Of a stretch of DNA of 38,000 bases, positions 8,451-16,633 are shown piece after piece. Source of the stretch: an uncultured Acidimicrobiaceae bacterium (GTDB taxonomy: Bacteria; Actinomycetota; Acidimicrobiia; Acidimicrobiales; Bog-793). The first letter of the stretch is position 1; each line of letters opens with the position of its first letter. The position numbers and the translations under genes were made by a program. The stretch lies in the NCBI GenBank assembly GCA_903845085.1, contig CAIMWD010000135.1, positions 1 to 38,000 on the forward strand, given 5' to 3'. Below the pieces are notes generated by a model. It ran no database searches. It was not told the DNA's origin and saw only the letters and a list, made by a program, of their open reading frames with translations.

Positions 8451-10433
8451 CTAAGAGGCAGAGGAGAGCGAGGAGGGCGATGGCGACCCATGCTGATTCG
8501 ACCAGGTCGCATACATCTCGGCATAACGACCCCCGCGCGCCACCAACTCCTTGTGCGGTCCAACCTCAACGATCTCACCCTGATCGACCACGACGATGCG
8601 ATCCGCCCGCATTGCGGTCGTCAAACGGTGAGCGATCAGAATCGCCGTGCGCCCCTCAAGGAGGCGGTCGAGAGCTGCCTCAACCTTTACCTCTGACTTG
8701 AGATCTAAGTTCGAAGTCGCCTCGTCAAGAACCAGCACACGGGGGCTCGCGATGAATGCTCGTGCAAGCGCGATGAGCTGTCGCTCACCTGAGGCAAGCG
8801 ACTGACCACGCTCGTGCACTTCGGTGTGGATGCCATAGGGAAGGCGCTCAACTAGATCGTCAAGACCAACTGCACTGATCGCCTCCATCACCTCATCATC
8901 GCTGGCCTCAGGCCGCGCGAAGGCAACATTGTTGCGGATGGATCCCGAGAAGAGGAAGGCCTCCTGTGGCACAACGCCAAGCTGACGACGCAGCGAATTC
9001 AGCGTGATCTCGGTTAGTGGATATCCATCGATGCGCACGACACCGGCGGTGGGATCGTAGAAACGAGTGACGAGTTTGGCGATCGTTGACTTGCCCGCAC
9101 CGGTCGCGCCGACGAATGCGATGACTTCGCCTGCGTCGATGTGGAGATTGACATGCGAGAGCACCGGCACCTTGGGGTCATAGCCAAAGCTCACGTCATC
9201 AAAGTCGATCTTGCCCTCAATCGCCGGAAGTTCGTAGGCATCGGGTGACTCCGCCACGGTGGGGTCTGTCGAAAGAAGGATCCGCAATTTCGTGATCGCC
9301 GCCTGTCCCTGCTGATAGGTGTTGTAAAGCTGCACCATCTGCTGAATTGGCTGGAAGAAGGAGCCAAGAAAGAGGATGAATGCAAACAGCACACCCGTGG
9401 ACAGATGATGGTGGAGCACCATATCGCCACCGATAAGCAACAGCGCCAGCTGCCCGCCAAGACCGATGAAGTCAGAGGAGGCGGTATACGCCGCCGTCAC
9501 CTTGGCGCTTGTGCGGTTTGCCTGACGGTATCGGCCCACGATGTTGCGGTGTCGGATGACGTTATTGCGCTGCCGGTTGTACGCGGCGACGACGCGTACG
9601 CCAGAGAGACTTTCAGCGATATCGCCGATCACCGCTGCGAGATTGTCGCGCACCAGGAGATAGGTCCTCGCCGATGCATTTCGAAACCAAAGTGAGGTTG
9701 AGATAAGCGCGGGCAATACGATCGCACAGGTAATAAGTGCGAGCTCTACGTTATAGAGAAAGAGCACGACAGTGACAAAGAGCATCGTGAGCCCTTGAAT
9801 ACAGAATTGCGCCAGTCCATCTTGGAGCATGTTCTGGAGGACCTCGATATCGGAGGTCATCCGTGTCATGATGACGCCGGCCTTCTCCTCGGTGAAGTAG
9901 TCCAGCGAAAGCCTCTGGATATGAGTAAACACCTTCACGCGAAGATCGTTCATCACTTGAGCTGCTAGTCGGCCGGTGTTGCGAACGCGCTTGCGCTCGA
10001 CCAACACGGTCAATACCACGCTGACGATATAGGCGACACCAGTGATCACAACGACCGACATGTGGCCAGGTGTCACTCCGTGGTCGAGCCCGATCTGGGT
10101 GAGGATCGGTCCTATCTGAAAACCGACGGTCTCGATGGCAAGAAAGATGAGCGACCACATCGCGATGCTCCAGCGCGCGCTGATTAATCCCCAGAGCGTG
10201 ATCTTGCCCAGCTCTGCATTGTTCGGCGTGTATTTCGCGCTCGGTGCAGGGTGCTCTGGCTCGGTCTCCATAAGTTTGGTGACCGCCTCCTCGAGCTCTG
10301 GAGGAATGCCTGCGAAGGGGGCTCCTCCCGCAGCTCCGTGTCCACCACTGGGAATTCCCGAGCCACCAATGGCCCCGCCCGGGTTCCCCCGGATTCCCGC
10401 CCACATGCCCGGTCCGCCAAATCCCATACCCAT
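8451..10433 (-). CDS. ABC exporter half-transporter with canonical Walker B, degenerate signature
   Basis: A 660-residue type I exporter half: an unusual 40-residue Gly-rich start, a linker rich in Pro and Glu, six predicted membrane helices (about 85-360) and an NBD. Motifs: Walker A GATGAGKST at 442-450, Q-loop Gln490, Walker B VLVLDE at 566-571 with the catalytic Glu571, H-loop His602. The signature is LASGE at 546-550 instead of LSGGQ. The start ATG shares one base with the stop of the preceding half-transporter (TAATG, 10431-10435), so the two are translated together. Together they fit a heterodimeric multidrug- or lipid-type exporter such as BmrCD or TM287/288. The cargo cannot be read from sequence; the MarR gene heading the operon suggests a response to a toxic small molecule. 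Confidence 0.9.
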   Translation of the reverse strand: MGMGFGGPGMWAGIRGNPGGAIGGSGIPSGGHGAAGGAPFAGIPPELEEAVTKLMETEPEHPAPSAKYTPNNAELGKITLWGLISARWSIAMWSLIFLAIETVGFQIGPILTQIGLDHGVTPGHMSVVVITGVAYIVSVVLTVLVERKRVRNTGRLAAQVMNDLRVKVFTHIQRLSLDYFTEEKAGVIMTRMTSDIEVLQNMLQDGLAQFCIQGLTMLFVTVVLFLYNVELALITCAIVLPALISTSLWFRNASARTYLLVRDNLAAVIGDIAESLSGVRVVAAYNRQRNNVIRHRNIVGRYRQANRTSAKVTAAYTASSDFIGLGGQLALLLIGGDMVLHHHLSTGVLFAFILFLGSFFQPIQQMVQLYNTYQQGQAAITKLRILLSTDPTVAESPDAYELPAIEGKIDFDDVSFGYDPKVPVLSHVNLHIDAGEVIAFVGATGAGKSTIAKLVTRFYDPTAGVVRIDGYPLTEITLNSLRRQLGVVPQEAFLFSGSIRNNVAFARPEASDDEVMEAISAVGLDDLVERLPYGIHTEVHERGQSLASGERQLIALARAFIASPRVLVLDEATSNLDLKSEVKVEAALDRLLEGRTAILIAHRLTTAMRADRIVVVDQGEIVEVGPHKELVARGGRYAEMYATWSNQHGSPSPSSLSSAS

Positions 10434-12361
10434 TAGAGCTCCGGCCCCTGAATTGTCTCCTCAATCTGATGATCGAGCTCCTCCTCGGTGGCCGCGCGAG
10501 CGAGCACCTCTGCGTACCTTGGATCGGTCGCCAGTAGCTCCTCATGACGGCCAGAGGCGATAACGGTCCCATGTTCTACAAGGACCACCCGGTCCGCCAA
10601 ACTGATGGTTGCGAGACGGTGCGCGATGATGATCGTGGTCCGGTTCGTGAGGAGATCGCCGAGCGCATGATGGATGCGCTGCTCCACCTGAACATCGATC
10701 GCACTCGTCGCATCATCGAGCACAAGTATCGGAGGGTTGAGCAGCAGTGTTCGAGCGATTGCTATGCGCTGTCGCTGTCCACCCGAGAGGTTGTAGCCAC
10801 GCTCGCCTACCTCAGTGTCATATCCATCGCCGAGTCGTGAGATAAATCCATCGGCATCTGCAGCCTTTGCCGCGGCGATGACATCCTCAATTGCAGCGTC
10901 AGGGCGTCCGTAGGCGATGTTGTCACGCACCGAGTCGGAGAAGAGGAAGGGCTCATCGAGCACAATCCCAACATTTGCGCGAAGACTCGCGACGGTGAGA
11001 TCCCGGATATCGATCCCATCAACCGTGATCACACCGCTGGTGACGTCATAGGAGCGGTTCAGGAGACGCGCCACCGTCGATTTCCCCGATCCTGTGCGAC
11101 CCACTAGAGCGACCGTCTCCCCCGGAGCGACCGAGAGGGAGAAGTTGCGGAGTACGGGAGTTCCATCGGCATAGGTGAAGGTGACATCGTCAAACACCAC
11201 ATCACCACGACAGTTTCGAAGATCAGTTGCACCGGGGCGATCCACGATCTCCGGGGCATGGTCAAGGACCTCGTAGATCCTCTTCGCCGAAGCAGCCGCG
11301 CGTTGGCCGTTCATGATGATCATTCCGAGCTGCCGAAAGGGTGGCTGAAAGAGGAGCATGTACGCCTGAAAGGTGAAAAGTGTTCCGACACCAATCTGAT
11401 GGCGAATTGCGAGCGCACCGCCATAGAGAAGGATGACCGCAAGACCAATACGGGGCAGGTTTTCGAGCATCGGAGCCCAAGTTCCCCTGATATCTGCATC
11501 CTTGATATAGGCCCACTGCAGCCGATCAGCCGTCGATGCGAGCGCAGTGAGTTCGGGCTGCTCAGCGGCGAAGGACTTCACCACACGCACTCCGCTGATG
11601 TTCTCCTCGACGATCGTCGCCACTTCGGCGAGACGGGCCTGGATCAGCCATGAGACCGGGAAGATCTTTGTCCGCATGATCATGCCCACGATGAGGGTAA
11701 TTGGCAGGGAGAGCATCGTGATCAGGGTGAGCTGCGCATTCAGCGAGAACATCTCTGCAAAGGCGATCAGCACAACCGCGCATTGCACGAAAACGGTTGG
11801 TGCCATGACGAGATACTGCTGTACCGCGCGAACGTCAGAGTTCGCACGGGAGATCAACTGTCCGACCTGCACGGCATCGTAGAAGGGGAAGGAAAGGCCC
11901 ATGTAGTGCTCGTAGACGATGTTGCGAAGGTCATACTCAAATGAGTAAGCGGTGGTCAACAACATCCGTCGACCGGTGTAGTTGGAGAATTCGCGAACCG
12001 CGATCAACACGATCAAAATCACCGCAAAGTGTGAGAGTGAGACAAGATGCTGCACCGTCGGTGATGTTGTCGTCGAACTCGCCGGCAACGCCTGATTAAT
12101 TGCCTGACCGATAATCCGAGGGATCTGTACCTGTGTCAGCAGAGCGATAAAAGACATGACGAGCGAACTCACCCAAAAAAAACGGTGAGCGCGCACCACC
12201 GGCCAGGAGCGCTTCAACCAAGACTTTGTCGCGTCGGGATCGATCGTCGCCCGTGGAGCCTCAAAGAGCGAGGCCTCGACTACTGGCTCAAACTCGCGAG
12301 CGCCGAGGTCCTGAAAGAGCGTCTCCGTGCTCTGACCAAGCAGGAGCTGCGAGGGCCTCAT
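10433..12361 (-). CDS. ABC exporter half-transporter with canonical signature, degenerate catalytic residues
   Basis: A 642-residue partner of the downstream half-transporter: membrane domain about 55-350, NBD about 385-620. Walker A GRTGSGKST is at 421-429 and the signature LSGGQ at 525-529 is consensus. The catalytic Glu after Walker B is Asp550 (ILVLDD), and the Q-loop reads VLDEPF, so its Gln is replaced by Asp469. The H-loop His581 is kept. In a heterodimer this Walker A/B pairs with the partner's LASGE, so all changes fall into one degenerate site, while its own LSGGQ completes the partner's intact catalytic site. ATG at 12359-12361 overlaps the MarR stop as ATGA. Confidence 0.92.
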   Translation of the reverse strand: MRPSQLLLGQSTETLFQDLGAREFEPVVEASLFEAPRATIDPDATKSWLKRSWPVVRAHRFFWVSSLVMSFIALLTQVQIPRIIGQAINQALPASSTTTSPTVQHLVSLSHFAVILIVLIAVREFSNYTGRRMLLTTAYSFEYDLRNIVYEHYMGLSFPFYDAVQVGQLISRANSDVRAVQQYLVMAPTVFVQCAVVLIAFAEMFSLNAQLTLITMLSLPITLIVGMIMRTKIFPVSWLIQARLAEVATIVEENISGVRVVKSFAAEQPELTALASTADRLQWAYIKDADIRGTWAPMLENLPRIGLAVILLYGGALAIRHQIGVGTLFTFQAYMLLFQPPFRQLGMIIMNGQRAAASAKRIYEVLDHAPEIVDRPGATDLRNCRGDVVFDDVTFTYADGTPVLRNFSLSVAPGETVALVGRTGSGKSTVARLLNRSYDVTSGVITVDGIDIRDLTVASLRANVGIVLDEPFLFSDSVRDNIAYGRPDAAIEDVIAAAKAADADGFISRLGDGYDTEVGERGYNLSGGQRQRIAIARTLLLNPPILVLDDATSAIDVQVEQRIHHALGDLLTNRTTIIIAHRLATISLADRVVLVEHGTVIASGRHEELLATDPRYAEVLARAATEEELDHQIEETIQGPEL

Positions 12362-12825
12362 GACTGTTCAATTTCACGGGCCGCGCGCTTGGCAAGACGC
12401 TCATGACGGCGTGCGTCAAAGGCCGCCTCCCAAAGCGGAAGATCTTCGATCAACTTCGCCGCGCGCACTGGATCGAGGTGGGTCGCGATAGAGGTGAGAC
12501 GCTCGGTCACCGATGCATCGGCCTCCGCGAGCACCCGTCGCCCCTCGTCGGTGAGATTCAGCGAGACCCTTCGCCGATCAAGTGCGGAGTGCGATCGCTC
12601 GATAAGTCCTCGATTAACGAGGCCATCGACAACAGCGGTGACGCTTGGCGCGCTCACCTCAAGTTTGCGGGCGAGCGTGGTCGACGCCTCGGCACCATCA
12701 GCAAGCTGAAAGAGCAACCGATACTGCGCTGAGGAAAGTTCGACCGTGGCGAGCGCGGCATCGACCTGTCGACCGAGACGCGCTGCGGTACGGCCGATTA
12801 CACGGGAAAGTTGTTCGGCTGTCAC
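12358..12825 (-). CDS. MarR family transcriptional regulator
   Basis: A 155-residue winged-helix dimer of the MarR family. The helix-turn-helix is around residues 50-72 (STTLARKLEVSAPSVTAVV), with the wing at about 75-92 (LIERSHSALDRRRVSLNLT); flanking helices form the dimer interface. MarR proteins usually repress their own operon and release DNA when bound by a phenolic or other small ligand. It is the first gene of a tightly overlapping operon with two ABC exporter halves, so it very likely controls their expression. The start is GTG 12823-12825; no Shine-Dalgarno sequence precedes it, which agrees with the leaderless promoter proposed just upstream. Confidence 0.9.
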   Translation of the reverse strand: MTAEQLSRVIGRTAARLGRQVDAALATVELSSAQYRLLFQLADGAEASTTLARKLEVSAPSVTAVVDGLVNRGLIERSHSALDRRRVSLNLTDEGRRVLAEADASVTERLTSIATHLDPVRAAKLIEDLPLWEAAFDARRHERLAKRAAREIEQS

Positions 12826-13529: not shown

Positions 13530-13580
13530 GTGAACCGAGGTGCGATGGTTCGCGACCTTGCACGACGGAGTATCTCGTGA
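13530..13580 (+). CDS. Possible 16-codon leader peptide coupled to murT-gatD
   Basis: A GTG at 13530-13532 is preceded by the strong ribosome binding site GAGGAGG at 4 bases and opens a frame of 16 codons (MNRGAMVRDLARRSIS). Its TGA (13578-13580) overlaps the GTG start of murT-gatD (13577-13579) as GTGA. The arrangement suggests translational coupling or a regulatory leader. CCTCG (13513-13517) and CGAGG (13518 onward region, at 13519-13523) are partly complementary, so the ribosome binding site could be masked by a small stem. No attenuator or codon run for a single amino acid is evident. It could also be fortuitous, since murT-gatD has its own CGGAG 6 bases before its start. Confidence 0.4.
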   Translation: MNRGAMVRDLARRSIS

Positions 13581-15649
13581 CGAATTGCCGCTCCCCGCGA
13601 ACCGTCCTCGCGCTCATGGCTCTGCGCAGCGCGGCACTACTCTCGCGCCGACTTGGCCGCGGGAGCGGGTCGATTATCGGCGGTCGCGTCGCACTCTTGC
13701 TCTGTCCCTCACTGATTGAGCGCCTTGGTCACGAGATGACCGTGGTGCTTGTCAGCGGAACCAACGGGAAAACCACAACGACGCGATTGCTCGTTGAGGC
13801 GCTTGGCGGCACAGACCGCGTCGCCACCTCAACGACTGGATCGAACATGCCCGCCGGTATCGTGACCGCGATCGCACGTCGAGTCGGCGGACAGACTCTC
13901 TCCACGGCGGTACTGGAGGTCGACGAGGCCTATCTCCCACTTCTGATCGATCAGCTGTCGCCAGCAGCGGTGGTATTGCTCAACCTCTCTCGCGACCAGC
14001 TCGACCGTATCGGCGAGGTGCGCATGATCGCACACCGCTGGCGCGAGGCGCTCGCCAATAGCGAGGCGATGGTCGTGGCGAACGCCGATGATCCGTTGGT
14101 GGTCTACGCCGCAGGCGAGGCGAGATGGACAACCTTTGTCGGCGCGGGAAATCACTGGCGCGAGGATGCATTCCACTGTCCTCGCTGCGATGGACGCATC
14201 AGCTTCTCCAAAGATCGCTGGAGCTGTAGCTGTGGATTCGCTCGACCAAACGTCATCGCGGACTATCGCGAGGGTGAACTCCGCATGGCGGACGGCCGAT
14301 CTCTGCCGATCAACTCGCAACTTCCGGGTGAATTCAATCGGGAGAACCTTGCGATCGCGGCTATTGCCGCGACGGTAATCGGTGAACCGCTGACCTTAGC
14401 AATTGAGCGCATGGAGGGCCTCGCCGAAGTAGCTGGACGTTTCTCCGTCCATCAGATCGGTGAGCAGACCGTACGGCTCATGCTCGCCAAAAACCCTGCG
14501 GGTTGGACCAGTCTCCTCGAGCTTGCCTGCGAGAGCGAGGCAACGCTCCTTCTCGCGATCAATGCACGGGTCGCCGACGGCCACGACCCCTCATGGCTTT
14601 TTGATGTTCCCTTCGAACTTCTTGCTGGTCGTCATCTCGTCACCAGCGGAGAGCGACGGTTCGATCTGGGCGTGAGGCTCCGACACGCAGGACTTCCACA
14701 TGAGATCGGTGCGATCCTCCCGCAGCACACCCTGGGTGCGATTACCGATACGCACATCGACATCATCGCGAACTACACCGCCTTCCAGGACCTGCGGCGA
14801 GCCTTAGTGCAGCGACAGACCACGGTTACCCCGGCCCCGCTTCCCCAGGGCGGGCCGGAGGAGAGCCGCGTGAGGAGTAGAGAGGGAGATGCGCGCTCGC
14901 CGCTGCAGATCGTTGTTGTCTACCCCGAGCTACTCGGGACTTACGGCGACAGCGGGAACGCAGCGGTGCTCGTCAATCGGGCCAGGTGGCGTGGGATCGA
15001 TGCAGAGCTGGTTGAAGCCCATCTGGGCGACCCACTCCCCCGCGACGGCGCGATCTATCTCCTCGGCGGTGGAGAGGACGGGCCACAGGTACGCGCTACC
15101 GAGGAGCTGCGATCTGAGGGATTTGGCTCTATCCTCGCCTCGGGAACCGTGGTCTTCGCCGTCTGTGCTGGCTATCAGATTCTGGGGCACACCTTCCCCG
15201 CCGCCGATGGTCAATTGCGGGAGGGACTAGGGATTCTCGACGTGACCACCGTCCGTCCGGTCGCTCCACGTGCGGTTGGCGAGATCGCGGGCGAGTGCCG
15301 CATCGACGGGATCGGGGTGCTTACGGGCTTTGAGAATCACGCGAGCCACACCATTCTCGGCGCAGGAGTGGAACCATTGATGAACCTATCTGCCGGCATT
15401 GGCAATGGTGCTAGTTCTACCGATGGTGCAATATCAGGACACGTCATCGGCAGCTACCTTCACGGCCCCGCGCTCGCGCGTAATCCGGCGCTCGCGGACT
15501 ACCTCCTTTCGCTGGCAACCGGTCGAACGATACCGCCCCTTAGAGATCTTGAGGAGCAGAGTTTGCGTCATGAACGCCTCTCCGCGGCTGGTTTGCCCAA
15601 TGTGGATGCACTGGTCCCCCAACCCGAGGTAACCGGCAGCCGCGGGTGA
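13577..15649 (+). CDS. murT-gatD: MurT-GatD fusion, lipid II isoglutaminyl synthase
   Basis: One 690-residue chain joins both subunits of the enzyme that amidates D-Glu of lipid II to D-isoglutamine at the inner face of the membrane. The MurT part (1 to about 412) has the P-loop GTNGKTTTT at 61-69, NLSRDQLDRIGE at 136-147, a zinc ribbon (Cys201, Cys204, Cys217, Cys219) and the C-terminal DUF1727 domain with ADGHDPSW at 333-340. A Pro/Gly/Arg-rich linker of about 30 residues follows. The GatD part (about 443-650) has PELLGTYGDSGN at 450-461, the nucleophile Cys530 in VFAVCAGYQILG and His629 in SYLHGP. In other Gram-positives the two are separate adjacent genes. No internal stop or restart is seen. 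The C-terminal 40 residues beyond the amidotransferase fold are unassigned. Starts at GTG; Met14 is an alternative. Confidence 0.93.
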   Translation: MTNCRSPRTVLALMALRSAALLSRRLGRGSGSIIGGRVALLLCPSLIERLGHEMTVVLVSGTNGKTTTTRLLVEALGGTDRVATSTTGSNMPAGIVTAIARRVGGQTLSTAVLEVDEAYLPLLIDQLSPAAVVLLNLSRDQLDRIGEVRMIAHRWREALANSEAMVVANADDPLVVYAAGEARWTTFVGAGNHWREDAFHCPRCDGRISFSKDRWSCSCGFARPNVIADYREGELRMADGRSLPINSQLPGEFNRENLAIAAIAATVIGEPLTLAIERMEGLAEVAGRFSVHQIGEQTVRLMLAKNPAGWTSLLELACESEATLLLAINARVADGHDPSWLFDVPFELLAGRHLVTSGERRFDLGVRLRHAGLPHEIGAILPQHTLGAITDTHIDIIANYTAFQDLRRALVQRQTTVTPAPLPQGGPEESRVRSREGDARSPLQIVVVYPELLGTYGDSGNAAVLVNRARWRGIDAELVEAHLGDPLPRDGAIYLLGGGEDGPQVRATEELRSEGFGSILASGTVVFAVCAGYQILGHTFPAADGQLREGLGILDVTTVRPVAPRAVGEIAGECRIDGIGVLTGFENHASHTILGAGVEPLMNLSAGIGNGASSTDGAISGHVIGSYLHGPALARNPALADYLLSLATGRTIPPLRDLEEQSLRHERLSAAGLPNVDALVPQPEVTGSRG

Positions 15650-15697: not shown

Positions 15698-16633
15698 ATG
15701 AGTTCGCTGGCGGGAGCACCGGAGCTGAGTTCGCAGATGCGACCTCACCCTCTTACGGAACAACTCAAGGGATATGTGGCGCTCACCAAGCCACGTATTA
15801 TCGAGCTTCTCCTCATCACGACCGTGCCCACCATGTTCGTTGCCGCCAAGGCACTTCCCTCCTTCGGCCTCATCATGCTCACGCTCATTGGTGGCACGCT
15901 CGCTGCCGGTGGAGCAAATGCGATGAACATGATCTACGACCGCGACATCGACGCGCTGATGGAACGCACCAAGAACCGTCCGCTGGTTACCGGACTTATC
16001 TCGCCGCCGGCAGCGATGGTCTTCGCCGGCGCGCTAGAGGTTGGGGCCTTCGTGGAGCTGTGGCTGACGGTCAACCTGCTGTCCGCGATTCTCGCTGTCT
16101 CCGCAACTGCCTTTTATGTCCTCATCTACACGATGTGGTTGAAGCGAACGACTACCCAAAACATCGTCATCGGAGGAGCGGCCGGCGCGGTGCCCGTGTT
16201 GGTGGGCTGGAGTTCGGTGACGAACCACCTCACGCTCGCGCCCTTTCTCCTCTTTGCCATCGTCTTCTTCTGGACCCCACCGCATTTTTGGGCGCTCGCT
16301 GTTCGCTACCGTGAGGACTACCAGCGCGCCGAGGTTCCCATGCTCCCCGCCGTGGTGGAGATTGAGCGAGTCGTCTCTCAGATCATCTGGTACACGGTGA
16401 TACTCGACGCTCTGGCGATTGGATTTGGTTTTGCTGCGCCGTATCACCTCGCCGAACGGATCGCCTACTTCGTTATCGCGACGCTGCTCGGTGTCGCATT
16501 CACCGGACGTGCAATCTCATTGCGAAATGATGCTGGACCCAAGAATGCGATGGGGCTCTTCACACTCTCCATCAGCTACCTCACCGTGCTCTTTGTTGCG
16601 ATGGGTGTACTCGGAGCAATCCAGCACCCGTAG
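15698..16633 (+). CDS. ctaB: Protoheme IX farnesyltransferase (heme O synthase)
   Basis: A 311-residue integral membrane prenyltransferase of the UbiA superfamily with nine predicted helices. The first Asp-rich motif is N74AMNMIYDRDID85 followed by ALMERTKNRPL, and the second is YREDYQRAEVPMLP. Both bind farnesyl diphosphate through magnesium. It converts heme B to heme O for heme-copper terminal oxidases. The gene starts 48 bases after murT-gatD with no obvious terminator between, so they may be cotranscribed. No cox genes are in the window. The ATG at 15698 has only a weak CAGAG upstream; Met14 is a possible later start. Confidence 0.95.
   Translation: MSSLAGAPELSSQMRPHPLTEQLKGYVALTKPRIIELLLITTVPTMFVAAKALPSFGLIMLTLIGGTLAAGGANAMNMIYDRDIDALMERTKNRPLVTGLISPPAAMVFAGALEVGAFVELWLTVNLLSAILAVSATAFYVLIYTMWLKRTTTQNIVIGGAAGAVPVLVGWSSVTNHLTLAPFLLFAIVFFWTPPHFWALAVRYREDYQRAEVPMLPAVVEIERVVSQIIWYTVILDALAIGFGFAAPYHLAERIAYFVIATLLGVAFTGRAISLRNDAGPKNAMGLFTLSISYLTVLFVAMGVLGAIQHP

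Follow-up and report, generated by a model that had tools for sequence, protein, structure and literature searches.

Lipid II isoglutaminyl synthase, which amidates a cell-wall precursor, is built from MurT and GatD, produced as two proteins in most bacteria. Several Gram-positive pathogens cannot do without this two-subunit enzyme, which has to be handled as a complex. In the 38,000-nucleotide stretch of DNA analysed here (the window), from an uncultured Acidimicrobiaceae bacterium, both proteins appear within one open reading frame. This raises the questions of whether the frame represents a genuine gene, what enzyme it would encode, and whether such fusions arose once or repeatedly.

A single frame encoding MurT and GatD

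The fused murT-gatD frame is located on the forward strand (13577..15649) and comprises 690 codons without interruption, from a GTG start preceded by GGAG (13567-13570) to a TGA stop; relatives carry the same frame. The MurT part (residues 1-415; 13577..14821, + strand) comprises a Mur ligase middle domain with a Cys4 zinc ribbon followed by MurT_C, while the GatD part (residues 442-690; 14900..15646, + strand) comprises a class I glutaminase domain and a C-terminal helix. Three Pfam models passed their gathering scores within this one frame: Mur_ligase_M (residues 59-265; 9e-15, 55.6 bits against a cut-off of 24), MurT_C (residues 303-402; 2e-17, 63.4 bits against 25), and GATase_3 (PF07685; residues 444-636; 7e-28, 98 bits against 27). 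Thus, the initial annotation, which had read MurT and GatD in one polypeptide and had proposed a domain-database search for the fusion, was borne out.

The combination of Mur_ligase_M and MurT_C places the N-terminal part among the MurT proteins of the Mur ligase family (PF08353), as do the P-loop (G61, K65, and T66), the Mg-binding Glu E114, and the triad Asp D337. A Cys4 zinc ribbon is a feature of a subset of MurTs, and its four cysteines are present (C201, C204, C217, and C219). The C-terminal part has the class I glutaminase fold of GatD with catalytic Cys530 and His629. In the translated frame, GTNGKT occupies residues 61-66, CPRC 201-204, CSC 217-219, and ADGHDPSW 333-340, which, together with Cys530 and His629, are the motif positions that had been reported for this protein. 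Searches against solved structures (phmmer) matched residues ~8-415 to MurT of S. pneumoniae, S. aureus, and S. pyogenes and residues ~433-655 to GatD chains. The NCBIfam equivalogs for MurT and GatD (NF045635 and NF045636) gave the best kind of match, yet reached only 156.5 of 800 and 95.4 of 400 bits and missed their cut-offs because the lineage is too distant for such narrow models. The protein was not assigned to either equivalog; the shortfall would be expected of a distant lineage and does not prove that the reaction is the same. In the host genome, the fused frame accounts for the sole MurT_C and the sole full GATase_3; a search of that genome for a second MurT or a second full-length GATase_3, which the initial annotation had proposed, recovered only three further GATase_3 matches, all short and partial.

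An AlphaFold2 model of the fused protein (mean pLDDT 87, pTM 0.85) resolved two confident parts, which Foldseek and VIA-align placed on the MurT and GatD chains of 6fqb, 6gs2/6h5e, 7q8e, and 9sq9/9sqj, with structural alignment of the GatD part to GatD chains yielding Z scores of 25-29. Between the two parts lies a Pro/Gly/Arg-rich linker (residues 416-439; 14822..14893, + strand) that has pLDDT values under 50 and is predicted to be disordered. Linker length and sequence vary among fused relatives, in which 35-83 residues separate the last MurT motif from the first GatD strand. Such free variation is what a passive, floppy tether would show. A tail of ~40 residues had been proposed to extend beyond the amidotransferase fold. 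However, the match to S. aureus GatD continues as far as residue 674 of the model and residue 239 of the chain, and a helix predicted at residues 658-670 contains an LR.ER motif that is also found in stand-alone GatDs. These observations indicate that most of the supposed tail corresponds to the usual C-terminal end of GatD, with predicted disorder confined to the last ~12 residues.

Catalytic and interface residues were taken from the S. aureus and S. pneumoniae enzymes (PMC6113224, PMC6085368) and compared across 32 fused proteins. All 32 retain the P-loop Lys65, the Mg-site Glu114, and the MurT triad Asp337 (equivalent to S. aureus Asp349), as well as the interface-loop residues D140, D143, R144, and E147 and the GatD-part residues Tyr456, Asp458, Cys530, and His629. 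The zinc ribbon is nearly as constant, with one cysteine substituted in a single protein (1/32).

Function of the fused protein and alternative readings

Collectively, these results suggest that the gene very probably encodes a lipid II isoglutaminyl synthase of the ordinary type in single-chain form. The enzyme would use ATP and glutamine to amidate D-Glu in lipid II. Judged by homology, ATP and the peptidoglycan precursor would bind to the MurT part, which would activate the alpha-carboxyl of the D-Glu residue, while Cys530 and His629 of the GatD part would hydrolyse glutamine. Ammonia would then move to the MurT part as in the two-subunit enzyme, yielding D-isoglutamine; both the substrate and the route of ammonia transfer are predicted from sequence. 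The tether would have taken the place of the stop/start junction in an ancestral murT-gatD operon and would hold the partners together at 1:1 while lying outside of the catalytic machinery. We infer that the fused protein remains uncleaved, although proteolysis in the host may separate its halves, and the earlier suggestion that fusion fixes the MurT:GatD ratio at 1:1 can be accepted as reasonable for a single chain. The literature searched contained no biochemistry or peptidoglycan analysis of the host lineage.

Translation might also yield free GatD in addition to the fusion, through internal initiation at an in-frame GTG in the linker (codon 432, 14870) that follows a Shine-Dalgarno-like GGAGGAG (14857-14863) by six bases (together 14857..14872, + strand). 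This is very unlikely, since among the 20 other fused relatives listed only two have a 5-base match ahead of an in-frame linker start (AGGTG, 11 bases from the start, in L003 and GGAGG, 8 bases away, in L016), and the congeneric genome (G002) has none. Moreover, such a match precedes 29 of the 506 internal in-frame starts in the window (~6%), which puts its occurrence here at chance level. The internal GatD start was therefore rejected as functional.

That covalent linkage alters catalysis, for example through tighter or otherwise changed ammonia channelling or glutaminase control, is highly improbable. A link of this kind could change how the interface assembles, and fusion arose at least twice; however, none of the 32 fused proteins shows a change at the catalytic or interface residues, the linker, predicted to be disordered, is free to vary in length, and the lineage sister to the fused clade (L109 and L110) retains split genes. 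The changed channelling of ammonia raised in the initial annotation is thus without support.

Although split pairs elsewhere in the order adjoin or overlap such that one indel could fuse them, an assembly or sequencing error joining two neighbouring genes, which had been named as a finding that would overturn the fusion, has a negligible probability and is already refuted by independent genomes, since 17 of the 19 gene-carrying genomes of the host family are open at the same junction, with different linkers, as are three named MAGs (L078-L080).

The fusion is shared across the family. Our sample of the host family comprised 35 genomes, of which 19 carried the gene. Beyond the 17 with both halves in one open frame, contig ends break the gene in the congeneric genome, yet its frame is open from the MurT end over the linker into GatD, making it the 18th; in the remaining genome (G026) a contig end cuts the gene, rendering it uninformative on fusion. 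No match was detected in the other 16 genomes at E 1e-15, and the gene is therefore patchy within the family. A UbiA-type prenyltransferase gene, probably cyoE, lies directly downstream (15698-16633), and most family members have it next to the fused gene; the rhodanese and MarR genes upstream, on the opposite strand, are kept in fewer. Two adjacent ABC exporter-like genes and a MarR-type regulator gene occupy 8451-12825 of the window, a layout that is common for heterodimeric exporters.

Distribution and number of origins

In samples of the host class and phylum, murT and gatD are split nearly everywhere, including in a genome taken for Acidimicrobium ferrooxidans (G072). Streptomyces matches that seemed continuous proved to be separate genes; in many of these pairs both genes share a frame and a single stop divides them. 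Fused frames outside the host family were detected in two genomes of the same order (G291 and G332) and in two named MAGs (L079 and L080). The fused protein of G332 (L070) has a low-complexity SPTSSPTSS insert within its MurT_C region. Another, distant group (families f81, f88, and f101) was fused in 11 of the 11 genomes fetched, and Pfam confirmed the MurT-GatD architecture in one that was taken for Eggerthella lenta (G655).

MurT_C was identified in 98 of 296 sampled genomes of the host class and in 79 of 210 among those near-complete. The murT-gatD operon has been described as universal in Actinobacteria (Morlot et al., 2018); this universality does not hold for the host class. One genome (G280) encodes two different MurT/GatD pairs on separate contigs (L050 and L077, on C22 and C15) that are far apart in the tree.

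A 99-row tree built from both halves requires three changes of the fused label. A more careful tree of the Acidimicrobiales side recovered the 21 fused Acidimicrobiales rows as one group, although support was not strong (81/65), with the 17 fused rows of the host family supported at 100/98 and the split lineage L109 as sister to the 21-row group. Constraining the fused rows of both clades to group together lowered the log-likelihood by 195 (p-AU 2.1e-12), and a single shared origin of all fusions was rejected. Fusion therefore arose at least twice, independently, once in the Acidimicrobiales that include the host and once in the distant clade with f81, f88, and f101.

Elsewhere in the host order, the two genes of split pairs overlap or lie almost end to end, often at ATGA- or GTGA-type junctions, so that losing a single stop or slightly shifting the frame would suffice for fusion. 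The sister lineage, represented by palsa MAGs (L109 and L110), is cleanly split, and neither a frameshift nor a linker remnant was found at its junction. Given that fusion evolved at least twice and was long kept in both the Acidimicrobiales and the Eggerthella-containing clade, it is possible, though doubtful, that linkage is selectively advantageous rather than a neutral accident. If so, the fused lineages would draw a selectable gain from covalent linkage in assembly, dosage, or ammonia retention.

Comparison with known systems

MurT-GatD fusion is of a kind already known since 2012. Figueiredo et al. (2012; PMC3267633) describe the two ORFs as merged in rare Actinobacteria, with three cases, and the same two ORFs are merged here within one unbroken frame. 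What this analysis adds is that the fusion is common to the whole host family and has at least two independent origins, with at least one other fused clade (Eggerthella-containing) being separate in origin from the Acidimicrobiales fusion. The assertion that MurT and GatD are separate wherever they are known thus stands for the biochemically studied enzymes but not beyond them, given the fused ORFs reported in 2012 and their presence throughout two clades here. The literature searched held no description of a biochemically studied MurT-GatD fusion. While the fused enzyme leaves understanding of the reaction unchanged, a form that is naturally one chain lends itself to structural work and ammonia-transfer assays, and it lets one ask why some lineages join the pair.

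When compared to MurT/GatD of S. aureus (6gs2/6h5e/7q8e), S. pneumoniae (6fqb), and S. pyogenes (9sq9), the host enzyme shares both folds, the P-loop, the Cys4 ribbon, the Asp-Cys-His triad residues, and the interface loop, at ~24-33% identity in structural alignment; it differs in being one chain with a disordered linker, whereas theirs are two subunits. Among the split counterparts of Streptomyces, Nocardiopsis, Actinomadura, and other Acidimicrobiales, the closest are ~42-50% identical; their murT and gatD are adjacent and in the same order but separated by a stop codon that the host gene lacks.
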